Assembly (NCBI RefSeq): GCF_018873765.1
Contig: NC_057925.1
Span: 4,599,568-4,663,567 of the forward strand
DNA length: 64,000 nucleotides
From: Telopea speciosissima
Taxonomy: Eukaryota > Streptophyta > Magnoliopsida > Proteales > Proteaceae
Direction: 5' to 3'
The notes beneath the pieces were generated by a model, which made no database searches, had not been told where the DNA came from, and worked only from the letters and a program-made list of their open reading frames with translations. Positions 26,857 to 47,300 of the stretch are shown here, piece by piece (position 1 is the first letter of the stretch; the number at the start of each line of letters is the position of its first letter). A program made the position numbers and the translations under genes.

Positions 26857-27438
26857 ACATGACACTCTCCCTCAAGCTGGAGCATATATATATCTCCTAT
26901 GCTCCAGCTTTGTACAACAAAAACAGAATAATATTCAGAGCCAAACTTGAATATATATAACCATCATAGAAGCCAGTGGATATCAATAACAGAAATGCAT
27001 GAGAAATCTTCTTCCAATCACAACACTTGATAAACATATCAACCACCAACAGCGACAAAAGAGAAATAATCTTCATAAAGAAGAAATCCAGATAACAACA
27101 TAAGAGGCAGAAAATATCAGCCACAGGCAAGAAATCAGCAGCAGTTGGAGATGAACAAATCATCGTTGCAAGCTAGAAACCATTAACAACAATAGCAAAA
27201 GCCCAGGAAATAGCAGCAGTCAAAGATGAACAAATCATCATTGTGGGCCATAAATCTGAAATCCACAACTAGAAGAACTTCAGACAAATAGTAGAGAAAT
27301 CTTCAACAAGAACTCCAGGCAGATAAGAAATTTTCAATAAGAAGAAATCCACAATAACAAATCTTCAATAAAAAGACAAACATATAATCTTCAATAAGAA
27401 TACAGTAAATAATCTTCAATAAGAAGACAGATACATAA
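26857..27438. other. Non-coding, probable LARD-like element, left part
   Basis: CTCTCCCTCAAGCTGGAGC at 26865-26883 is the complement of a copia-type purine tract directly outside the TRIM repeat. The rest is A-rich, with repeated AATCTTCAATAAGAAG words. Similar style resumes to the right of the nest (59878-61060), so the nest appears to have landed in one older non-coding LTR element. No protein is encoded. Confidence 0.45.
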
Positions 27439-27443
27439 TCTTT

Positions 27444-27548
27444 TGTTTGATTGAGAGGAATGACTGAGCTGCTAGTGTGACAGCCCTATTCTTTTTATAA
27501 TAAGTGACAGAAAGGTACAAGTACACTAATGCCTCAATGGACAGATTT
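27444..27548 (-). repeat. 3' LTR of E, distal part
   Basis: TGTTTGATTGAGAGGAATGA to GGACAGATTT. It is interrupted by element C; the remaining 36 bp are at 35928-35963. Confidence 0.88.
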
Positions 27549-27775
27549 TGTTAAGAATAGTTGTTTCAGGGGTATACTTGTACATAAACCCCTTTTTATG
27601 TATTCTATGTGTTATTTGTATTAGGCTAAGGGCCTGAGTGTAATTAAATATTCTTTTCAATATAAGGCTGTTTGTCTCTAGTTGAGAGAGATAACAGATT
27701 ACACCAAATCGTGTTTGAACTTTGTGTCTCTTGGAGCTTTTCTTCTTTCTTCTCTTTTTACTCTAAAACCTAACA
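27549..27775 (+). repeat. 5' LTR of C
   Basis: 227 bp, TG...CA type. The same family as the LTRs of K on the opposite strand (shared TAAGAATAGT.GTTTCAGGGGT). Confidence 0.95.
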
Positions 27776-28320
27776 TGGTATTAAAGCAATTTGTTCCTGG
27801 AGTTTGAAGGTGTTTGAAGGTTGCGTGGAAGGCTAGAGTTAGCTTCCATCTCCTTGTTCTTGCTGGTTTTGCGAAGGAAACCTTAGGGTATCTTCACCAA
27901 GCTGTTTCTTCCTTGTTTGACAACCAAATAGAGAGCAACCAGATGCTCTAGCTTCGTTTGGAAGTCCCCTTTCTTGCCATTTGATCATCTCAAGTCTACT
28001 GGCAGCATCAGAGGATAGAATCTGAGTTTCGGCCAGACACATTCTGCACCCTTTTCCGCCAGTTAGAGTTCTTGAAGTGATCCAGCTCTTCGATAGAGCT
28101 TTGTCTGCTACATTCATTGGGCCATTCAGCATCGTTTTTGGGTAAGGAAGACTTGCCCTTGTTGCTCCGCTGCTGTTTGCTGCTTTGTTGAGGTTTTACA
28201 AGCCTTTTTCAGTTTTCTGGTCTCTGTTTTTACCTCTTTTTTACTGCTGTGTTCAAGGGGCAGTTGTTGTGGTTGGAATACAGTTGTTTGGACTTACCAA
28301 GTATTTGATTTAAGGTCAAT

Positions 28321-30643
28321 ATGGGTGACAAAAATGTGGAAACAGCCTTGCCTTTGTCTGCAGACCAAATTGCTGCATCACCCTCTGTTCCTTCATATGA
28401 GAACCCAAATGTGCAGCTTCCCATTGTCAAGTTGGACAATACCAATTACCTAGATTGGTCCCGATCCATGAAACTGATCCTTAGGCGTAGGGGAAAGATG
28501 GGGTACATAAATGGCAACATCAAGGCTCCTCTTCCTACCGACCAAGGGTATTCCAAATGGGACACTGAGAACTCTCTTGTGATGGCTTAGCTTCTTTTCT
28601 CAATGAAGCCTGAGATTGGACGGAGATTTATTGGTAAGGAGACTGCCAAAGACATTCTTTGATCGTGTTGGAGACTCTACAAAGGTGTACCAACTTCTCC
28701 AACAGATTGTTAGCCTACGCCAGGGTGATAGAAGCATCTCTGACTACTATTGTCTTGTTGTGGGCCTGTGGGAGGAGTATGATCACTATAGAGATCTTCA
28801 GCTGTGTCCTGATGATGAAGTCAAGGTACACAGGTTGTTTGAGAAGGAGAGGATACTATTTCTTCTTGGTGGCCTGAATCCTGAATTTGAGCCTCTAAGG
28901 GTACAAATCCTTGGCCGACCTAGTCTTCCCTCACTGGAGGAGGTGTGTGGATATCTACAGAGTGAGGAAACCCGTAGGGGTGCCATGGGGACTAGTATCA
29001 ACCCCACTGTTGAGCGATCTACTCTTGTTTCTTCCACCTCTCAGGACTCCCCTAAGGGAGCTGATAAAGGTGCTGCTAAGGAATCTTCGAAGAGCCGATT
29101 CTTATGTGAACATTGTGGTAAATCTGGCCATACGAAGGACTTCTGTTGGGATCTCCATGGGAAGCCCCCTCTTGGTTCCTCTGGGGGACTGAAGGGACAG
29201 CGTAAGAAGGGGCCTAAGGCTCATGTTGGGGTCATTGAAGCTGATTCCTCTTCTCTTTCCCAAGCTGACATTGCTGCCTTTCGCTGGGTTGTAGCCCACC
29301 TGGATGGTTCACCAGCTGCTCCTACTTCTACTGCACTGCAGGCCTCTTCCTCCTCCGGCACCACACCTTGGGTTATTGACTCGGGTGCCACGGATCATAT
29401 GACTGGTAGGTCTCAACTATATAATTCCTATTCCGTTTGTTCTGGGAAAGATAAGGTAAAAATTGCTTATGGTTCATTCTCTTCCATCTCTAGTAAGGGA
29501 GATATCCAAGTTACACCTTGCTTACCCTTGAAGTCTGTTTTTCATGTTCCCAACTTTGCTACTAACCTTCTTTCTGTTAGCCAACTGACTAAATCCTTGA
29601 ACTGCTTTGTCACCTTCTTTCCTACCCATTGTCTTTTTCAGGATTTGGTGACAAGGAAGGTGATTGGCAGTGGTCATGAAGCTGATGGCTTATATGTTTT
29701 GGAGACTGGTGCTTCCCCTGCTGTACAACCTCAATCCTATGTTTGTGGGCAAGAAGGTGGACGTACTCAAGAGGATATTTTGCTTTGGCATCGTTGGTTG
29801 GGACACCCTTCTTTTTCTGTTATGAGAGAACAGTTACCTCACTCATTTACCTCCTTTCCAGTCTCTCATGTTTTTCTTTGTGAACCTTGTTTATTTGCCA
29901 AAAGTTGTAAAACAATTTATACATCCAATGGTAATCGATCTACTTCACCTTTTCATCTTATCCATACTGATGTTTGGGGGCCTTCCCCTGTTACCTCTTT
30001 GCATGGCTTCCGCTACTTTGTGTCTTTTATTGATGATTATTCTCGGGTTACTTGGGTGTACTTGTTGAAACACAAAAGTGATGTCCATGTTGCATTTACA
30101 AATTTTTATGAGTTAGTGTATACCCAAATTTCAAACCCGGATCCAAATTGTTCGTTTTGACAAAGGTGGGGAGTATATGTATAGTGGTTTGGAAACCTTT
30201 TTTTCTGACTATGGCATTATTCATCAGGTGACCTGTGTTGATACCCCACAACAAAATGGGGTGGCTGAAAGAAAAAATCACCATCTTCTTGAAGTGGCTA
30301 GGTCCCTTTGGTTTACCGTGCATGTTCCAAAAACCTTTTGGTCTGATGCCCTCCTCACTGTTGTCTTTCTTATTAATCATATGCCATCTAGTGTCTTGAA
30401 CTTCAAAGTTCCACTTGAGGTCTTACCTCCCTGTTCTTCTTCCTTCTCTCTTCCACAAAGGGTGTTTGGGTGTATTTGCTATATCCATATTAGCAAATCT
30501 GCCCGCACTAAATTGGATCCTAAGGCTTTAAAGTGCATTTTTCTTGGGTATTCCTCCACATCCAAAGGTTATAAGTGTTATCATCCCCCTATACGTCGGT
30601 GGCTTCTCTCCAAAGATGTACATTTCTTTGAAACTATTCCTTA
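28321..30643 (+). pseudogene. C gag-protease-integrase, broken
   Basis: The ATG at 28321 starts copia gag. A TAG at 28588-28590 stands where relatives have TGG. About 20 bases present in relative B are missing near 28654, shifting the frame. The long frame 28616-30160 then carries late gag, the CCHC zinc knuckle (29105-29146), the protease active site DSG (29378-29386) and the integrase HHCC and core start (HTDVWGP near 29965). A one-base frameshift near 30140 breaks integrase, which resumes at 30177 with PQQNGVAERKN. Reading is cut at 30643 by D. It is not functional as it stands. Confidence 0.9.
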
Positions 30644-31011
30644 TGTCGGAACCGCTTCCTCTAAAAGACCGACCTTGTAGGAAAGGGAGGAAACAATATG
30701 TATATCATACAGGAGCTCTAACACAGCGGACTATCCAAAGGGGGACACGAGTGGATAAAATAATTTTTTAACACCTGCCCGCTCCCATGGGGACTCGATA
30801 CCATGACCCCTGCCTACTCTGATACCATGTAGAAACCGCTTACTCTAAAAGGCCGACCTTGTAGGAAAGGAAGGAAACAATATGCATATCATACAGGAGC
30901 TTTTAACACGGCGGACTATCCAAAGGGGGACACGGGTGGATAAATAATTTTTTAACACCTGCCCGCTCCCAGGGGGACTCGATACCGTGACCCCTGCCTG
31001 CTTTGATACCA
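30644..31011. repeat. Two 184-bp tandem units at the left edge of D
   Basis: Units 30644-30827 and 30828-31011 are near-identical (GGCCGACCTTGTAGGAAAGG versus GACCGACCTTGTAGGAAAGG, and so on). Each begins TGT..GAAACCGC-like and ends with a primer-site complement (CTCTGATACCA or CTTTGATACCA). On the minus strand each unit therefore starts with a primer site and ends with an LTR-like ACA. Confidence 0.88.
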
Positions 31012-31414
31012 TGTAGAAAACCTAGGACCTGTAACCAATAACCTTAGAGAGGAGAATAGAGAGAAGAAAGAAGAAGAGAAGAGTAGCTGCAAGGGGAGGA
31101 GCCGTATGTGTTATCTTGCTTCCTCCCTCAAGTATCTTATTTATAATAAAACCATTACAATCATAAAAGGAAAAGGAAACTAAACCTAATCTAAAATAAG
31201 TAACCAACTTAGACTAGGAAACTGACTCCTAACTCCTAACAATTAAAAACATAAAACAATAAAGGAAACCATAATGGACTCAACCACAATAGGGACACTC
31301 CCCCAATCGTGGTACACTTCTCAACACTCCCCCTCAAGCTGGATTATACAAAGAACTAAAGAAAGAGGATCCAACTTGAACTCAAGAAAAAAAGAACTCC
31401 TAATAATGCTAACA
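31012..31414 (-). repeat. Left arm of D (inverted LTR)
   Basis: 403 bp, starts TGTAGAAAACCTAGG and ends AATGCTAACA. It is the reverse complement of 33245-33647 with a single difference seen (AAGTAACC versus GGTTACCT). Confidence 0.92.
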
Positions 31415-33244
31415 TGGTATCAAAGCCCTAACCAGTACCTGTTTCTCTCTGTTATTGCCGTTTTGAGAGTCGTTTTTGGGTTTCTAGTTTGAAGAAGAAA
31501 CCCTAGTTTATAGAAGAAGAAGAACTAGGGTTTCATATACCTTTGAAGATTTGTATGAAAATTCGTACCTGTTCTGCTGATGATTGAAGCCTAAGTTTGT
31601 TCCTACTGCTGGCCGTTCTGCTGGTTGTATAACTATTGATATCTGGTCACAATTTCTGGTTTCGATTCACTGGTTGTTGTTGATCGAAATTTATTCCTGA
31701 TTCTTCGACTGGGTTTGCTAGTCATGATTTGCTGAATCCAAACAAACCGACGCCTCTGCTGCAATAATCTCTGGTTTTCTTATTTACATTGCTAATTCTA
31801 TTTTCTGCTAATCGATATCCTGCTACTAACGTTGGCTGGGTTTTCCGCCTCTGATTGCTAGTTACAGAACCAGCTACTTTCGATGGTCGGAGAACTGATT
31901 GTGGTTTCTGTTTTCAAATATTCCTCGATTTATTTTCTTCTAATGGTGTTTATTGTTCTCACCTCTGCTGATGGAGTCTCTCGAGTCTTGTTATCTTTTA
32001 CTTTTGGACCTTGGTAGTGAGGTTGAAGACGATCACTGTCGTGGTATCTTTCCCTTTGGCTACAGCCAGCAAGATATTTGGTTACTTTCTTTTAATTGAC
32101 CATAATCCATTCAATCCCAATGACATCGTTCTTTGTTATATTCCATATTTTATCTTTTTCCTAATTTGCCCTTGCCTTTATGCTTAATTCAGCTTCTATT
32201 TATCACTTACATTTGCTTCCAAGATTGCCCCTACTTCATAACTGGTAATTCCTATTGCATCCCAGTGCTTCTTTGTTTACCAAAAGCCCTTGAAAAATTC
32301 TGGTTATTTACCAGATTGCCACTCCTCCCTTAAATTTGGCCTTGCTTATGCATATATATATATGTATGGATTTCATTTAAATTACAATTCTGCCATTCCC
32401 CTATTTGACTACCCAATTGACCCTTAAAATTCTGGTTTATTACCAGTTTGCCCTTTGGCTTGGATTGTATTTAAAAGTGGATTTCCACCAAATTACAGCC
32501 ATGCCATTTTTTTTCCAACACCTTTCTCTTTCAATAATTCTAATTCCCTTCATATCCCATACCTTTGGTAATTACCCATAACACCATTGGAAACTTCTGG
32601 TAAATTATAATTTTGCCATTCCTTCCTTTTTTACTTACCCATAGCACCTTTGGAAAATTTTGGAATATTATGTTTTTGCCCTATCTTTTACATTATCTCT
32701 ATTATGTCCACGTGTACTACACGTGAGGGGGGGGGATTATGTACAGAACACCTGCAGACATTGCAGAACGCAGAACTTGCAGGAACATTGGTGCAAAACA
32801 TAGATCAGTTTTCTCCACCATTGCCATTGGGTATCCTTCGTTATTGGGTTGAGTTTGCCCTAAGGGGGAGATTGAAGTATTGAAGAGTATTGAAGATAAT
32901 TGGTTGTTGCCTATTTGAGGACTTTCCGCTGCCTGATTCAGTTTGTTTTCGCTGCTTGCTGCTCTAGTTATTTCACTTCAAGATTCTGTGTCACTATGAC
33001 AATCTGAGATTCATCACTGGATAGCTATTGAAGATCGTTGAAAGCTGCCTTTTGTGGAAGACATTCCAGTCCCGGTTTGCTGATCTTGCCTGTCCAAATT
33101 TTGAAGATCTATTTTTTCAAGTTCTTGAAAGTTTATTTGGGAGCTGCATTCATATGTCAAGCTGGATTCTGCTGCACCTTAGTTTTTTTCCCATTTTGTT
33201 CAAGTTGGGCATTAGTACATTGTATGCGCCAACTTGAGGGAGAG

Positions 33245-33647
33245 TGTTAGCATTATTAGGAGTTCTTTTTTTCTTGAGTTCAAGTTGGATCCTCTTTCTT
33301 TAGTTCTTTGTATAATCCAGCTTGAGGGGGAGTGTTGAGAAGTGTACCACGATTGGGGGAGTGTCCCTATTGTGGTTGAGTCCATTATGGTTTCCTTTAT
33401 TGTTTTATGTTTTTAATTGTTAGGAGTTAGGAGTCAGTTTCCTAGTCTAAGTTGGTTACCTATTTTAGATTAGGTTTAGTTTCCTTTTCCTTTTATGATT
33501 GTAATGGTTTTATTATAAATAAGATACTTGAGGGAGGAAGCAAGATAACACATACGGCTCCTCCCCTTGCAGCTACTCTTCTCTTCTTCTTTCTTCTCTC
33601 TATTCTCCTCTCTAAGGTTATTGGTTACAGGTCCTAGGTTTTCTACA
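33245..33647 (+). repeat. Right arm of D (LTR)
   Basis: 403 bp, starts TGTTAGCATTATTAGG after a purine tract and ends GGTTTTCTACA. An internal GAGGGGGAGTGTTGAG at about 33325-33339 looks like a second purine tract plus LTR start inside the arm, so the arm may itself be composite. Confidence 0.9.
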
Positions 33648-33652
33648 CCTTA

Positions 33653-35688
33653 TTTTCGATCACCTCTTCAGGGGGAGTGTTCATCTCGGGGTGGTGTAGA
33701 GGGTGAAGAGGTTCCAAAGTTTGTTTCAGCTCCTCTTTTCTCCTCTGTTTCTATTTCTCCTTTTCAGATTGACAAGGGAAAGAAAAGTTCTGTGGATACT
33801 GTTGTTGAGGGGGAGCCTCCTGTGGATAATGTTGTTGAGGGGGAGTCTCCCAGTGCACAGGTGAATAGAGAACAGGGGGAGCTACTGGTGTATATGAAAG
33901 ACAGGAAAAATCCTGCTTCATGGCTTCCTATAAAGAAGACCTGCCAAAACCCTGCTTCGTCTCCTCATCCCGAACTTCCATCCATCGAGACAGGTATACC
34001 TTCTTCTACTTCTATATCCTCAGACTTAGATTCCTATTGCCCACCGCAAGGGCACTAGGGCATGTACTAATCCCATTGCCAAGTTTGTTTCCTATGATTC
34101 TATCTCTCTTATAGGTATAGCCTTTTCTGTGGCTATCTCTTCCATATCTATTCCCAAGAATGTAGCAGAAGCTATGGTAGATCCAAAATGGAGAGAAGCA
34201 ATGAATACAGAGATGTTGGCTCTGGAGAAGAATCACACTTAGGACCTTGTTGAGCTTCCTAAAGGGAGGACCCCTGTTGGATGCAGATTGGTTTTCACGG
34301 TCAAGTTCAAGTCTGATGGTACTGTGGAGAGGTATAAGGTAAGACTGGTCGCTAAGGGTTATACACAGGTGTATGGCATTGACTATCAGGAGACCTTTGC
34401 CCCAGTAGCCAAGCACAACTCCATCCGTGTACTTCTCTCAGTGGCTGCAAATCTTGATTGGCCATTGTACCAACTTGATGTGAAGAATGCATTCTTACAT
34501 GGTGACCTAGAAGAAGAGGTGTATATGCATCATCCTCCTGGGTTCAAGCTTACTAGTGATAATGGGAAAGTTTGTCGTCTTAGGAAGGCTCTTTATGGAC
34601 TCAAACAGTCTCCTAAGGCTTGGTTTGAGAGGTTTAGACAAGCCCTCCTACAGAATGGGTATACTTTAAGTCAAGCTGATTACACATTGTTTATACAAAG
34701 GAAGGGCAGTACTACTACAGCTCTCATTGTTTATGTTGATGACATTGTGGTCACAGGAAACAGTGAAGCTGAAATCTCAAAACTTAAGCTTTATTTGGCT
34801 CGGCAGTTTGAGATCAAAGATCTCGGTCCATTGAAGTATTTTTTGGGGATTGAAGTTTCAAGGTCCAAGCAAGGGATTAGTGTTTGCCAAAGGAAGTTTG
34901 TTCTTGATCTACTTACAGAGACAGGTTAGTTAGGGTGCAAACCAATCTCCTCCCCTATTGAGCAGAACCACAGACTGGGGGAAGATTGTGGCGAACCTCT
35001 TATGGATGCTGAAAAATACCAGAGATTAGTTGGCAAGCTAATCTATCTTTCCCTCACCAGACCTGACATAACTTATGTTGTTGGAGTGGTGAGTCAGTTT
35101 ATGCATGCACCCAAGATGGGACATCTTGATGCAGTTTATAGGATCCTCAGGTACCTGAAGTCATGTCCTGGAAAGGGACTTCTCTTCTCTAGGAATGATC
35201 ACTTAAGAATCAAAGTTTATACAGATGCTGATTGGGCCGGGTCTATTTCGGATAGAAGGTCCACTTCTGGATATTGTACCTTTGTTGGGGGAAACTTAGT
35301 CACTTGGAGAAGTAAGAAGCAACGAGTGGTAGCAAGGTCAAGTGCTGACGTAGAGTTTAGAGCCATGGCCCATGGTGTGTGTGAAATCTTGTGGTTGAAG
35401 AAACTTGTTCAAGAATTGGGGTTTGAGACAACTGAGCCTATGAGTCTATACTGCAATAACAAGGCAGCCATCAGTATTGCTCACAATCCGTTTCAACATG
35501 ACCGGACAAAGCATGTTGAGGTTGATAAACACTTTATCAAGGAGAAGATAGAGTCTAAGAGTATTTGTACTCCTTTTATGAAGACAAATGAACAAGTGGC
35601 AGACATATTCACCAAAGGACTTAGTACTCATCAATTCAGTTTTATGTTAGACAAGCTGGGTATGTATGACATATACCACCCAGCTTGA
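33653..35688 (+). pseudogene. C pol, linker-RT-RNase H, broken
   Basis: Resumes right after D with the Ser/Pro-rich linker. RT shows KARLVAKGYTQ-like text, QLDVKNAFLHGDL and the catalytic YVDD (34732-34743). RNase H has YTDADWAGS, ARSSA and KHVEVDKHFI, and ends at 35688. Stops include TAG at 34240-34242 (relatives have TGG) and TAG at 34927-34929. RT and RNase H order after integrase confirms copia. Not functional as it stands. Confidence 0.92.
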
Positions 35689-35695
35689 GGGGGAG

Positions 35696-35922
35696 TGTTA
35701 AGAATAGTTGTTTCAGGGGTATACTTGTACATAAACCCCTTTTTATGTATTCTATGTGTTATTTGTATTAAGCTAAGGGCCTGAGTGTAATTAAATATTC
35801 TTTTCAATATAAGGTTGTTTGTCTCTAGTTGAGAGAGATAACAGATTACACCAAATCGTGTTTGAACTTTGTCTCTCTTGGAGCTTTTCTTCTTTCATCT
35901 CTTTTTACTCTAAAACCTAACA
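35696..35922 (+). repeat. 3' LTR of C
   Basis: 227 bp, four differences from the 5' LTR. Confidence 0.95.
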
Positions 35923-35927
35923 GATTT

Positions 35928-35963
35928 ATCCTTTATACCCTTATTACACCCGATATTATAATA
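35928..35963 (-). repeat. 3' LTR of E, proximal part
   Basis: 36 bp that complete the E LTR after removal of C. The LTR start should read TGTTATAATATCGGG on the minus strand, but its second base is now A. Confidence 0.82.
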
Positions 35964-35970
35964 TTCCCCC

Positions 35971-36627
35971 TCAAGTTGATGCATGGATATCACGCATGCC
36001 CAACTTGCATACAATATGATGAAACGACTTACTACTTAACCCCTTTGTAAAAACATCTGCTAACTGATCTCTAGATTTTACAAAGGGAACATAAATCAGC
36101 CCTTGATCTAGCTTTTCTTTAATGAAATTAAGATCAATCTCAACATGCTTGGTGCGATCATGTTGGACTGGATTATGAGCAATACTAATTGTGGACTTGC
36201 CGTCACAGTAGAGCATTATAGGAAGGGAAACATGAAGGTCTAGGTCTTTCAAGAGGCCTTGAAGCCACATCAACTCACAGACGCCATGAGACAGGGCACA
36301 AAATTCAGCTTCAGCACTGGACCAACCAACAACAACTGCTTCTTACTCCAAGTAACTAGGTTGCCTCCCACAAAGGTGCCATAACCGGTGGTAGATCGCC
36401 AATCATCCAGAGAACTGGCCCAATCAGCATCGGTAAAGACCTCAACTCACAAATGGCCATGAGAAGAGAGAAGGATTCCCTTTCTTGGTGCAAACTTCAA
36501 GTAGCGCAAGATCCGGAACATAGCTTCCAAGTGTGAGGAGTAAGGATCATGCATATACTGGCTTACCAGACTAATAACAAAGGCAACGTCAGGACGAGTA
36601 TTAGATAGCTAAATCAGCTTTCCAACC
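35971..36627 (-). pseudogene. E RNase H fragment
   Basis: The minus strand reads the copia RNase H C-terminal part (DGKSTISIAHNPVQHDRTKH, FTKGLSS), ending in a TGA at 35971-35973 that overlaps the purine tract. Stops and shifts lie between 36274 and 36627. The text breaks in mid-motif at CAACC (36623-36627), where element F entered, and resumes at 47502. Confidence 0.88.
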
Positions 36628-40239: not shown

Positions 40240-40468
40240 TGTTAGGTTTTAGAATGGAAGGAGAAGAGGAGAGAAGAGAGAAGAAGCTCTAGGAGAGCAA
40301 ACACGATGTTGGGGCTTATGTGTTATGTCTCAAACTAGAGACTAACAGGTTTATATTCAAAAGAATGAATAATTACAGAGAGGCCCCTGGCCTTATACAA
40401 ATAACATAAAAAAACATAAAAACATGTGGATATGTACAAATACACCCCTGAAACTACTATTCTTAACA
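40240..40468 (-). repeat. 3' LTR of K
   Basis: 229 bp; on the plus strand TGTTAGGTTTTAG to ATTCTTAACA. Confidence 0.95.
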
Positions 40469-40475
40469 CTCCCCC

Positions 40476-43400
40476 TCAAGTTGGGTGGTATATGTCATAC
40501 ATGCCCAGCTTGTTCAACAAACAATCAAAATGATGAGAGCTAAGGCCTTTGGTGAAGATGTCTGCCACTTGGTTATTTGTCTTCACAAAAGGCGTGCAGA
40601 TTGTCTTTGATTCAATCTTTTCCTTGATAAAATGTCTATCAACCTCAACATGCTTTGTCCTGTCATGCTGCACTGGGTTATGGGCAATACTTATGGCTGC
40701 CTTGTTATCACGATATAAACTCATAGGTTTAACAGTCTCAAATCCCAACTCTTGAACAAGTTTCTTTAACCACAAGATTTCACACACTTCATGAGCCATG
40801 GCTCTAAATTCTGCCTCAGCACTCGATCTAGCCACCACAGGTTGCTTCTTACTTCTCCAAGTAACCAAATTTCCACCAACAAATGTACAATATCCTGAAG
40901 CAGATCTTCGATCAGAAATAGATCCAGCCCAGTCAGCATCAGTGTATGCTTCTATCCTCAAGTGACCATTCCTAGAGAAGAGAAGACCTTTTCCAGGGCA
41001 TGACTTTAAATATCTGAGAATTCTGTAAACTGCATCAAGATGTCCCATTTTGGGTGCATGCATAAACTGACTTACCACTCCAACAGCATAGGCTATGTCA
41101 GGTCGGGTAAGGGAAAGATAGATCAGCTTGCCTACTAATCTCTGATATTTCTCAGCATCTATAAGAGGTTCACCACAATCTTCCCCTAGTTTGTGATTCT
41201 ATTTAATAGGGGAGGAGACTGGTTTACATCCTAAGTATCCTGTCTCTGTAAGCAGATCAAGGACAAACTTCCTTTGACAAACATTGATCCCTTGCTTGGA
41301 TCTTGAAACTTGAATCCCCAGGAAGTACTTCAAAGGACCAAGATCTTTGATCTCAAACTGCCGAGCCAAGTAAAGTTTAAGCTTTGAGATTTCAGCCTCA
41401 CTGTTTCCCGTGACCACAATGTCATCAACATATACAATGAGAGTTGTAATAGTATTGTCCTTCCTTTGTATAAACAAAGTGTGATCGGCTTGACTTTAGG
41501 TGTATCCATTCTATAGGATAGCTTGTCTAAACCTCTCAAACCAAACCTTAGGAGATTGTTTAAGGCCATAAAGAGCCTTCCTAAGACGACACACCTTTCC
41601 ATTGCCACTAGGATGCTTGAACCCAGGAGGAGAGTGCATGTAGACCTCTTCTTCTAAGTCACCATGTAAGAATGCATTCTTTACATCAAGCTGGTATAAT
41701 GGCCAATCAAGATTTGCAGCCATTGAGAGAAGTACCCGAATGGAGTTATGCTTGGCCACTGGAGCAAAGGTTTCCTGATAATCAATGCCATACACCTGTG
41801 TATATCCCTTGGCAACCAGTCTTGCCTTATACCTCTCCAGAGTACCATCAGACTTGAATTTGACTGTGAATACCCATCTGCAACCAACAGGAATTCTCCC
41901 CTGTGGGAGTTCAACAAGATCCCAAGTGTGATTCTTCTCAAGAGCCACCATCTCTGTATTCATTGCTTCTCTCCATTTCGGATCAGCCATAGCCTCTGCT
42001 ACATTCTTAGGAATAGGTATAGAGGAAATAGCCACAGTGAAGGCAACACCTGTAGGAGATAAACTTGGCAATAGGATTAGTACATGCCCGTGTTCCCTTG
42101 CGATGTGCAATGGGGAGATCTAAGTCTGAGGATGTGGAAGTAGAGGAAGGTATACCTGTCTCAATGGATGTAGATCCAGGATGAGGAGACGAAAGGGGGT
42201 TTTGGCAGGTCTTCTTTATGGGAAGCCATGAGGAAGGATTTTGGCTGCCATCCTTCTTTGTATACAACAGTAGCTCCCCCTGTTCTCTGTTCACCGGTGC
42301 ACAAGGCGGCTCCTTCTCAACAATAGCATCTATAGAACTCTCCCCCTCAACAAGAGAATCCACAGAACTTTTTTTTCCTTTGTCAATCTAAAAAGGGGGA
42401 ATAGGAACAAGAGAGGAGAAGGGAAAGGAAACAAACTCAGGAACCTCTTCAATCGCAACACCAAGGGATGAACTCTCCCCCTGAAGAGGTGACTGAAAAT
42501 ACGGAATGGTTTCAAAAAAATGGACATCTTTGGAGAGAAGCCACCGACAGGTAGGAGGGTGATAACATTTGTATCCTTTGGAGGTAGAGGAATACCCAAG
42601 AAAGAGGCACTTCAAGGCCTTAGGGTCCAATTTAGTGCGGGCAGAATTGCTAATATAGACATAGCAAATACAACAAAACACTTTTGGAGGAAGAGAAAAG
42701 GAAGAAGAAAGTGAGGGTAAGACATCAAGAGGGACTCTGAAGTTCAAGACACTGGAGGGCATATGATTAATAAGAAAGACAGCAGTGAGTCAGGCATTGG
42801 ACCAAAAAGTTTTTGGAACATGCATTGTAAACCAAAGAGACTGAGCCACTTCCAACAGGTGGCGATTTTTTCGCTCAGCAACCCCATTTTGTTGGGGGGT
42901 ATCAACACAAGCCACCTGATGGACAATGCCATGGTCAGAAAAAAAGGTTTCCAAACCACCATACGTATACTCTCCACCTTTATCGGAACTGACAATCTGA
43001 ATACAAGTTTGAAACTGAGTAAACACCAACTCATAAAAAATTTTAAACGCGGCATAGACATCACTCTTTTGTTTCAAGAGATAAACCCAAGTAACCCGAG
43101 AGAAATCATCAATGAAAGAGACAAAGTAGCGGAAGCCACGTAAAGAAGTAACTGAGGAAGGACCCCAAACATCAGTGTGAACAATGTGAAAAGGTGAAGT
43201 AGATTTATTGCTAGTAGATGGATAAATTATCTTACAACTTTTTGCAAAAAGACAAGGTTCACAATGGAACACATGATTGACAGGAAAAGAGGTAAATAAA
43301 TGTGGCAACAGTTTCCTCATAACAGAAAAAGAGGGGTGTCCCAAACGACAATGCCAAAGCAAAATATCCTCCTGTGTACGTCCGCCATCTTGCCCACACA

Positions 43401-44841
43401 CGTAAGATTGAGCTTTCGCAACAGGGGAAGCACAAGTGTCCAAAACATATAAGCCATCTGCTTCACGTCCACTGCCAATCACCCTCTTCGTCACCAAATC
43501 CTGAAAGAGACAATGGGTAGGAAAGAAGGTGACAAAACAGTTTAAAAATTTAGTCAATTGGCTAACTGAAAGAAGATTAGTAGCAAAGTTGGGAACATGA
43601 AAGACAGATTTCAAAGGGATAAGTGGAGTGACTTGGACATCTCCCTTACCCGAAATGGAAGAAAGGGAGCCATCAGCAATTTTTACCTTGTCTTTCCCAG
43701 AGCAAATAAAGTAAGAATTATAAAGTTGAGACCTACCCAGTCATATAATCTGTGACTCCGGAGTCAATGACCCAGGGCGTGGTACCAGAAGAGGAAGAGA
43801 CCTGTAGAGCAGTGGAAGTAGTGGTAGCAGTAGAGGAGGAACCATCCAAGTGGGCTACAATTCGGCAAAATACAGCTATGTCTTCTTTGGAGAGAGAGGA
43901 TGGATCAGGCTCATGAACTCCAACGTGGGCCTTAGGCCTATTCTTCTTCTGTCCTTTCTGTCCCCCTGATGAAGTAGAGGATGGTTTCCCATGAAGATCC
44001 CAACAAAACTCCTTCCTATGTCCAGACTTGCCACAATAGTCACAGGAGAATCGACCCCTACCAGACCCCTTGGTGAGGGGAGTACGATCCTGAGGAGTGG
44101 AAGAAATAAGGGCAGAGCGCTCAACGGTGGGAGTGGTCTCCATAGCACCCCTACGGGTCTCCTCACTCTGTAGATAACCACACACTTCCTTCAGGGAGGG
44201 GAGACTTGGTCGGCCAAGGATCTGGACCCGTAAAGGTTCAAATTTAGGATTAAGACCTCCAAGGAGGAACAGGACCCTCTCCTTCTCAAACAGCCGATGC
44301 ACTTTAGGCTCATCAACAGGGTACAACTGGAGATCTCTATAATGATCATACTCCTCCCACAGTCCTACGACCAGACTATAGTATTCAGAGATACTTTTGT
44401 CACCCTGGCGCAGGCTAACAATCTGTTGGAGAAGTTGATAAACCTTGGTAGAGTCTCCCACTCTATCAAAAATACAAAATTTCTTTGGCAATCTCCTTGC
44501 TCATAAACCTTCTTCCAACCTCCGGCTTCATTGAAAAAATAAGCCAAGTCATCACAAGGGAGTTCTCTGTTTCCCATTTGGAGTAACTTGGATCAATGGA
44601 GGGGGAAGCCTTGAAGCTCCTAGATATGTATCCCAACTTTCCTCTACTCCGAAGAATGAGTTTCATAGACCGTGACCAATCCAAGTAATTATGATTGTCA
44701 AGCTTGACAATGGGGAGCTGAACATTGGGATTCTCATATGAAGGTGAAGGGATTAAAGGCAAGCTCGCAATGATGGGAAACTCGGATGTCTCGAGATATT
44801 TCGAGATGGAGGGATGATCGTGTCTCCATTTTTTCACCCAT
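40476..44841 (-). pseudogene. K gag-pol, broken but nearly complete
   Basis: The minus-strand ATG at 44841 opens gag (MGEKMETRSS), which soon stops. Gag text resumes near 44750 with NPNVQLPIVKLDN. The CCHC knuckle is near 44045-44005. Protease reads WVIDSGVTDYMTG near 43775-43737; the DSG triplet is intact, but the usual A and H after it are V and Y. Integrase spans 43614-42790. RT has the catalytic YVDD at 41432-41421. RNase H ends at 40476. At least six frame breaks separate these pieces. All domains are represented, but no intact polyprotein is encoded. Confidence 0.92.
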
Positions 44842-45363
44842 TGTGACTTCAAAGCAAACAGTTGGGAACCAAACAACAGCACCACAAGTAACCACAGTGG
44901 GTTCTCAAGAGACAGCAGCAAAAAACAGATACAAATCGGGACAGAAAACCTTGAAATAGCTTGTAGAACTTTAAACAATCATCAAACAACAGTGGAGCAA
45001 AGAAGAAGAACCTTCCTAACCAAAAAACGACAGGGTATAGCCCAAAAAAACTCCCAAACCAAGCTCTATTGAAGAGCTCTTTCGAATCAGTCCCTCTGGC
45101 TGGCAGAAAAAGTTGCAGAAATGGCCTGGCCGAGATGTAGTTCTAATCCTTAGGAGCTTCCAAGATGCTTGAGAGGATACAAGGGAAAGAAAGAGCACGT
45201 CCAAACGAAACTAGAGCAACTGGTCACTCATCATTCAGGTTGCAAACAAGAGAGAAATCGATCTGAGAAGGAAGGCTAGGTTTTCCTTCAAAGGAACTGT
45301 TCTTCACCTTCCAAACAGCCTTCTACCACCTTCAAAATCTAGGAGCAAGATGCTCTGATACCA

Positions 45364-45592
45364 TGTTAGGTTTTAGAATGGAAGGAGAAGAGGAGAGAAG
45401 AGAGAAGAAGCTCTAGGAGAGCAAACACGATGTTGGGGATTATGTGTTATGTCTCAAACTAGAGACTAACAGGTTTATATTCAAAAGAATGAATAATTAC
45501 AGAGAGGCCCCTAGCCTTATACAAATAACATAAAAAAACATAAAAACATGTGGATATGTACAAATATACCCCTGAAACTACTATTCTTAACA
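45364..45592 (-). repeat. 5' LTR of K
   Basis: 229 bp; three differences from 40240-40468. Confidence 0.95.
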
Positions 45593-45597
45593 TACGC

Positions 45598-47300
45598 ATC
45601 CAGTTGCCGACTGTGGATCTAGACCCTACTCCTCCTGGTAAGATTTCTCCTTCCGACCAACCTATTGCTTATCGCAAAGGTACTAGGACTTGGCACTCAG
45701 CATCCCATTTCCCATTTTGTTTCTTATAGTTCTCTTTCTCCATCTTTTCGTGCATTTGTGTCCTCTGTTTCTATTCCTAAAAATTGGCAGGAAGCTTACA
45801 CAGATGGAAAGTAGAAGGTAGCAATGTTGGAAGAAATGAGAACATTGAAAAAAAATAATACTTGGGATCTTGTAGATCTTCCTCTAGGGAAACGACCAAT
45901 GGGATGTAAATGGGTGTTTGTGGTCAAACAGAAGGTTGATGGGACTGTGGATCGATATAAGGCACGCCTGGTTGCAAAGGGCTTTACCCAAACTTATGGA
46001 GTTGATTATCAGGAGACCTTCGCATCAGTGGCTAAACTCAATACTGTAAGAGTGTTATTGTCATGCGCTCTAAATCTTGGGTGGGATCTTCAGCAGTTGG
46101 ATGTGAAGAATGCCTTCCTCCATGGAGAGCTCGAGGAAGAGGTATATATGGATATTCCACCAGGCTTCTCTGATGATAAGACCAAGGGCAAGGTCTGTAA
46201 ATTGAAGCGTGCTCTTTATGGGTTGAAACAGCCACCTAGAGCTTGGTTCGACAGGTTTCACAAGGCAATGCTTTCAGTGGGCTATAAGAAAAGCAATGCT
46301 GATCATACACTGTTCATCAAACGAGTTGGTGATAAGGTAACTATTCTCATAGTCTATGTTGATGATATTGTTATAACCGGAGATGATGTTGATGAGATCA
46401 AGAAATTAAAGCACTTCCTTGGCCATGAGTTTGAAATAAAGGATCTGAGAACTCTAAAATATTTTCTAGGGATAGAAGTTGCTCAATCTTTAAAGGGCAT
46501 CTTCCTTTCTCAAAGGAAATATATCCTAGATTTGTTGTTCGAAACAGGGATGTTAGGGTGTCATCCCACAGATACTCCCATGGAAGCTACTGCAAGGCTT
46601 AAGGAGAAAGAAGGTGAACCAGCGGACAAAGGTCGCTATCAGAATTGGTTGGCAAGCTAATCTACCTCTCTCATACACGGCCAGATAGCTGTTGCAGTTA
46701 GTCTAGTGAGCCAATTTATGCATGATCCTTATTCTTCTCATATTGAGGCAGTTATTCGCATTCTTCGGTATTTAAAGTCTGCTCCTAGAAAAAAAATACT
46801 TTTATCTCCCAATGGCCATCTGAAAGGTGAAGCTTACACTGATGCTGATTGGGTTGGCTCTACTGACAGGAAATCCATCTTTGGATATTGCTCTTTTGTG
46901 GGTGGGAATCTTGTCACACGGCGTAGCAAGAAGCAGAATGTTGTGGCAAGATCCAGTGTTAAAGCTGAATTCCGTGCTATGGCACAAGGAATCTGTGAGT
47001 TGCTATGGCTTAAAGGGTTGTAGCAAGACATTGGAGTTGCTGTCCATCTTCCCATGATGCTATATTGTGACAACAAGGCTGCCATTAGCATCACTCATAA
47101 CCCTATCCAGCATGATCGTACCAAGCATGTTTAAGTTGACCAACATTTCATTAAGGAGAAGATTGAAGCTGGTCTCATCTGTGTTCCCTTTGTGAAGTCT
47201 GCTGACCAGCTAGCCGATGTGTTCACTAAAGGGTTGAGTAGCAAAGTTTTCTGTCCTGTTTTAGTCAAGTTGGGCATGTGTGACATATATGCACCAACTT
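45598..47300 (+). pseudogene. F pol, RT-RNase H, broken
   Basis: Resumes after K with the linker, then RT from about 45824 (NNTWDLVDLP, KARLVAKGFTQTYGVDYQET, QLDVKNAFLHGELEEEVYMD). The YVDD lies at 46355-46366. RT is open to 46660, one of the longest surviving frames of the nest. Frame breaks follow near 46650 and 46690. RNase H (YTDADWVGS, RSSVKAEFRAMAQG) has a TAG near 47021-47023. The purine tract is at 47301-47309. Confidence 0.92.

Follow-up and report, generated by a model that had tools for sequence, protein, structure and literature searches.

Among described LTR insertions, the nearest published kind to the one analysed here is the template-switching complex, in which two packaged RNAs yield one cDNA and one integration, leaving a 5-bp duplication and near-identical LTRs (PMC1950507, Sabot and Schulman 2007). 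These complexes contain three LTRs and two core sequences, belong to one family or to close members, and involve an R-to-R switch (PMC1950507). A further precedent comes from HIV-1: in the accessible part of one report, strong-stop DNA of one packaged RNA is proposed to move to the primer site of the other, and intermolecular plus-strand transfer gives asymmetric-LTR proviruses whose 5' LTR is donated by the other packaged RNA, as we propose here, but which are colinear and have no head-to-head joint (PMC9278108). Inverted LTRs resembling ours occur in Ty1 and retroviral autointegration inversions, although these are circles formed from one molecule according to the available portion of the source (PMC4751563), and in DIRS, which the consulted part of the literature characterises by a tyrosine recombinase and three ORFs (PMC5633606).

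We analysed a 3,004-bp insert (30644-33647) in a 64-kb stretch of DNA, hereafter the window, together with the 822.9-Mb plant genome (1,287 contigs) that contains it. With template-switching complexes the insert has in common the flanking 5-bp duplication and the matching LTRs and, on the reading we prefer, two RNAs and one cycle. It differs in that it is head-to-head, combines a TRIM with a larger element and has two U5 outer ends; instead of an internal LTR common to two cores through R-to-R, we find a U3/primer-site joint. DIRS elements are not known to carry a target duplication, whereas the insert has a 5-bp duplication, TG/CA ends and no ORF longer than 77 aa, and is thus not a DIRS element. 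Its outer left part is like TRIMs and other small LTR retrotransposons in its short LTRs, primer site, purine-rich end, tandem multimers and 5-bp duplications; unlike an ordinary TRIM, it has its 5' LTR replaced by the 403-bp LTR of another family (LTR403) and is fused to another cDNA. Among the literature matches listed, a coverage in which subscription papers are mostly not included, there is no description of a head-to-head, two-U5-ended LTR insertion.

Structure of the insert and its host site

The insert lies inside an older copia-type element that is flanked by the duplication GATTT and whose LTRs differ at 4 of 227 positions; typical plant substitution rates suggest a host age of 0.69-1.27 My. 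It starts with TG, ends with CA and has a perfect CCTTA on both sides, a duplication that an earlier note on this DNA had recognised. A related copia element on the minus strand of the window (40240-45606) has the insert site uninterrupted, with a single CCGTA, and BLAST homology between the two elements stops at 30644 and resumes at 33648 (Table 1). These two copia elements lie in opposite orientation, are 77-84% alike and have more copia-like fragments around them.

Table 1 Features of the insert and its host site; coordinates are those of the window.
Feature	Position	Strand	Remarks
Host copia-type element	27549-35922	+	LTRs 27549-27775 and 35696-35922; encloses the insert
Target-site duplication CCTTA, left	30639-30643
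Target-site duplication CCTTA, right	33648-33652
TRIM LTR, 130 bp	30644-30773	-	U5 end (..GGTTCCGACA) bounds the insert on the left
TRIM internal region, 54 bp	30774-30827	-	starts with primer site TGGTATCAGAG
Second TRIM LTR, 130 bp	30828-30957	-
Second TRIM internal region, 54 bp	30958-31011	-	starts TGGTATCAAAGC, directly after LTR403
Left arm, LTR403 reversed	31012-31414	-	U5 end adjoins TRIM primer site; U3 end adjoins forward primer site
Abnormal joint	31414-31415		primer site TGGTATCAAAGC directly meets the LTR403 U3 end (..GCTAACA), with no bases gained or lost
Primer site, LTR403-family element	31415-31426	+	presumably initiator-Met tRNA type
Internal region, LTR403-family element, 1,830 bp	31415-33244	+	no ORF longer than 77 aa
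Polypurine tract CTTGAGGGAGAG	33233-33244	+	precedes the right arm
Right arm, LTR403	33245-33647	+	U5 end (..TTTTCTACA, CTACA) is the outer right end of the insert

The two arms form a 403-bp inverted repeat with 99.75% identity, far beyond chance, and the single mismatch (31199 A against 33460 G) confirms the roughly one difference that had been noted. A primer site inward of the left arm and a purine tract before the right arm had also been described correctly (TGGTATCAAAGC begins at 31415, and CTTGAGGGAGAG stands before the right arm), as had the second primer-site complement that faces outward, which is the complement of TGGTATCAAAGC and ends at 31011. On the left side the 403-bp arm is only one portion: the left part is 771 bp long, 30644-31427 is not a single arm, and the outer 368 bp (30644-31011) belong to another family, a TRIM, whose identity had been missed. 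Overall, the data support an insertion of LTR type that made a 5-bp duplication of its own, has its arms inverted and arose in one recent event.

On the minus strand, the left part runs from LTR403 through the TRIM primer site and internal region, a TRIM LTR and a further internal region to a TRIM LTR that ends CCGACA at the host. On the plus strand, the right part consists of the primer site, internal region, purine tract and an LTR403 that ends CTACA at the host. The insert is a reversed LTR403-TRIM-TRIM block whose LTR403, at its U3 end, abuts the bare primer site of a second block, made up of LTR403-family internal region, polypurine tract and LTR403. Both outer ends of the insert are of U5 type, one from each family. 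The joints coincide with natural ends of reverse transcription: a U5/primer-site boundary at 31011/31012 and, at 31414/31415, a U3 start as formed after the polypurine tract against the primer-site end of a minus strand.

The TG...CA ends and the 5-bp target duplication are those of an LTR retrotransposon inserted by copia-type integration, and a primer site follows the 5' LTR and a polypurine tract precedes the 3' LTR; the left arm has primer sites on both sides, and the arms are inverted in place of two direct LTRs. The insert is a rearranged product and not an ordinary member of the class. The ORF list contains no gag-pol coding frame in 31415-33244, with nothing above the length given in Table 1, so the LTR403-family element is non-autonomous. 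Its internal region, near 33181-33246, resembles 3'-terminal sequence of further copia-type elements of the window. An Rfam search of 27000-36500 returned a single sub-threshold match, located outside the insert.

The two families and their joints across the genome

TRIMs have LTRs of 100-250 bp, a very short internal part, a primer site and a purine tract, and are non-coding. The outer 368 bp of the insert fits this description: it consists of two tandem 184-bp units on the minus strand, each with an LTR of 130 bp and an internal region of 54 bp, its two LTRs are about 92% alike, and this family is also found by itself elsewhere in the genome, in arrays of two, three, four and five LTRs. Free copies have their own duplications, with all five bases matching at the best-fitting TG/CA ends in 10 of 29 other TRIM loci (28 distinct arrays, as L011 and L012 overlap); L011 has CTAAG on both sides. 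Outside the insert, 3 TRIM loci together hold 4 sites with the 18-mer ending CCGACA. When six loci were compared over the whole unit, the outer TRIM unit was nearest to L074 (178/184), whose CCGACA end also adjoins non-TRIM sequence, and the inner unit to L028 (176/184) and L010 (178/185).

The LTR403 family likewise has copies of ordinary structure. Among 40 scored of 1,981 candidate relatives, the two direct LTRs of the C110 element come closest (98.8 and 99.3%), flanked on both sides by GTTTG, and a direct-LTR copy on C8 has its own duplication TCTCG; the direct-LTR relatives that the earlier note proposed to look for therefore exist. Compared with the right arm, the C110 LTRs show 3 and 5 changes in 403 sites. 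At the one site where the arms disagree, the left arm has a base of its own, the other base being present in 7/7 other LTR copies from 5 elements. Together these data indicate that both LTR403 copies of the insert derive from one template or from two near-identical ones. One difference (95% range 0.03-5.6 differences) suggests, at typical plant substitution rates, an arm age of 0.10-0.18 My.

Two purine tracts, at 33233-33244 and 33321-33332, lie 88 bp apart. In some copies the LTR comprises the last 315 bp only and the first 88 bp are internal, while others start after the outer tract (403 bp); the second purine tract within the 403-bp LTR accounts for the 315-bp form. Judged from these sequences, LTR length varies within the LTR403 family.

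We compared the joints of the insert with the rest of the genome. Normal LTR403-type U5/primer-site joints number 467 (at most 2 mismatches, the insert's own included; control 0). The inverted LTR403 U3/primer-site joint gave five matches with at most 3 mismatches (reversed-pattern control 1), and the only exact one is that of the window; recurrence at other loci, the second check proposed earlier, was not found for the exact joint. The four near-matches carry 1-3 mismatches, and the one inspected (C7:51274400, one mismatch) is an LTR beside unrelated sequence. No inverted joint of the 315-bp LTR form was found in the genome. A 160-bp query spanning the joint matched over its full length only in the window (40 scored matches); two other matches reach 5-6 bases beyond the joint, and one of these is the same unrelated C7 site. 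Inverted U3/primer-site joints of the TRIM were found at four places with 2 mismatches and at none exactly (control 0), and two of these four places, L071 and L072, have no TRIM part.

By comparison, the other joint of the insert, between an LTR403-type end and TRIM internal sequence, occurs at 19 or more other places among 40 scored of 1,566 candidates, where a match was counted when it runs at least 34 bases past the joint. We examined 11 of the 19 at the locus level (L052-L062). A primer-site-like sequence directly follows the TRIM LTR in six (L052, L053, L055, L059, L060, L062), and the TRIM LTR is shortened in the other five (L054, L056, L057, L058, L061). None of the 11 is a free-standing LTR403-TRIM, which suggests that the swapped LTR may predate the insertion event. 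In L052, L055, L060 and L062 (for example C5:68750832-68753979) the TRIM unit has the LTR/primer site on one side and a second primer site on the other, giving two primer sites per leader.

A further locus, L035 (C2:49876116-49876484, minus strand), is a two-unit TRIM with a 5' LTR of another kind and flanks GGAGT/AGAGT, a 4/5 match. This suggests that LTR swaps onto TRIMs get integrated. The primer-site variant CAAAGC was considered as a trace of transfer from the LTR403-family element and proved uninformative, as the free TRIMs L010, L018, L020, L021 and L027 have it too.

Origin of the insert

The observed anatomy, with exact natural termini at its joints, one duplication, two families and a joint that is rare in the genome, probably reflects the head-to-head fusion of a TRIM-multimer cDNA (A) and an LTR403-family cDNA (B) that were co-packaged and integrated once. 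This largely agrees with the earlier suggestion that two cDNAs in opposite orientation formed a chimera and integrated as a unit, the second cDNA being a TRIM multimer that carries the LTR of the first element. We infer the co-packaging, the order of the steps, the enzymes and the joining step as follows. RNA of the non-coding element B and of the TRIM multimer A would have been present inside one virus-like particle. Plus-strand strong-stop DNA of B, comprising LTR403 and the primer site, would anneal to the TRIM minus strand at a shared 12-nt primer site, so that the transferred LTR403 would become the 5' LTR of the TRIM cDNA and B would be left ending at a bare primer site. Such a transfer leaves B without a 5' LTR and with a minus strand ending at the primer site, which is exactly the partner seen at the odd joint. 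The two cDNAs would then be linked through their left ends, the bare terminus of B to the U3 terminus of the LTR403 that A had acquired, either by ligation or through end-to-end template switching; TGT, three bases common to both possible continuations, could have aided the joining. Finally, the dimer with its two outer U5 ends (TRIM CCGACA, LTR403 CTACA) may have been inserted by integrase acting in trans from an autonomous copia element, producing the CCTTA duplication. Against the fusion of A and B stand its occurrence at one locus only, the lack of a free-standing LTR403-TRIM among the 11 joints examined, the slight lean of a comparison of TRIM LTRs towards leader-borne units (below), the imperfect flanks of L035, the need for one integrase to accept the ends of two families, and the fact that the insert is read from assembled sequence.

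The second RNA is argued for by the close relatives of the forward part. The first 240 bp of its internal region have 11 non-self matches of at least 92%, and in all 11 a non-TRIM end stands directly before the primer site, namely the LTR403-type CTACA end in 10 and another end in one (L080). The lineage of the forward part thus has no TRIM in its leader, and a separate RNA is the likelier source of the TRIM part. A TRIM as the natural leader of the forward element is rejected for these close relatives; a more distant subfamily does have one.

That subfamily underlies an unlikely alternative with a single parent of the order LTR403, two repeats of TRIM internal region and TRIM LTR, primer site, internal region, polypurine tract and LTR403, whose 771-bp 5' block became attached in reverse during reverse transcription. 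Leader elements that combine a single TRIM unit with direct LTRs and duplications do exist, as at least two of the LTR403-type-end/TRIM joints sit in such elements (C5:68750832-68753979 with CTTTC and a copy on C11 with GATCC), and in L016 a different LTR is followed by two TRIM units and then by primer-site-like sequence. A comparison of the TRIM LTRs only, with 96 other units, did not separate free from leader-borne units: leader-borne units are slightly closer on median (0.944 against 0.920, and 0.937 against 0.924), the inner unit is best matched by the free TRIM L028 (0.977), and for the outer unit L054 (leader, partial) and L015 (free) tie at 0.962. However, the LTRs of the TRIM-in-leader elements, where they match LTR403 over a long stretch, are 89-96% identical to it, those of their leaders that match do so at 75-85%, TRIM is missing from all 11 close relatives of the internal region, and the forward internal region follows none of the four other CCGACA sites.

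Quite unlikely, in our assessment, is a rearrangement after integration, in which the left part of an ordinary element, or of two nested ones, was inverted or converted in the chromosome. The left arm is indeed flanked by a perfect 15-nt inverted repeat, consisting of the primer site and three bases, but inversion at these repeats needs an abnormal starting structure, in which LTR403 turns its U3 end towards a TRIM primer site and the two are not separated by a duplication. Moreover, the breakpoints fall exactly at LTR termini and the outer duplication is intact.

The earlier note had also proposed autointegration of one cDNA, in which the U3 end attacks the LTR/primer-site boundary of its own molecule and the rearranged product integrates later. 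We regard this as very improbable. An autointegration product is expected to have a 5-bp duplication of its internal target at the joint, and there is none at 31414/31415. The attack would have to strike one particular bond among about 3,000, and a TRIM-in-leader parent would be required. The exact bond, the missing 5-bp mark and the lack of TRIM in 11/11 close relatives together leave autointegration unsupported. Inverted two-LTR products of this process have been reported, but as circles in the part of the source available (PMC4751563). Least credible of all is an assembly artefact, as the window contains no N letters, the 403-bp arms, 1.8 kb apart, would fit within one long read if such reads were used, and exact biological termini with a matching duplication are not expected from misassembly.

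Related structures and significance

Other TRIM loci contain inverted pieces of their own. In 3 of the 29 (L026, L021 and L029, at C1:85755002, C5:55848693 and C4:25619425) an inverted piece of TRIM LTR stands in place of the start of the 5' LTR. L026, which opens with a U5 end in inverted orientation, is flanked by CTTGT/CTTGC, a 4/5 match by eye; flanks that match were found at neither L021 nor L029. The structures of L021 and L026 could be explained by fold-back of an unfinished minus strand. At positions 511-950 of L025 (C8, about 44357247-44357686), inverted TRIM arms meet at a purine tract, resembling a fold-back at the plus-strand start. We treat these four loci as leads to a possible second class, and not as proofs; L026, L021 and L029 are possible fold-back products with two U5 ends.

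With them in mind, we put forward tentatively, as something we hold possible but doubtful, that plant copia particles repeatedly yield two-U5-ended cDNAs, by left-end fusion or by minus-strand fold-back, and that integrase inserts them. This would be an unrecognised route to inverted-LTR, hairpin-prone loci that mix unrelated families.

The insert itself looks like a frozen reverse-transcription intermediate, whose joints would mark the point where B stalled (the primer site), the start of the plus strand (the polypurine tract) and the ends that integrase accepted. Transcripts across the inverted LTR arms could fold into a hairpin, from which small RNAs directed against the family might arise. 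If the fusion of A and B is true, integration can use a pair of U5 ends, and the genome holds evidence for joint copying of a TRIM with a larger element, a point relevant to which elements mobilise TRIMs.
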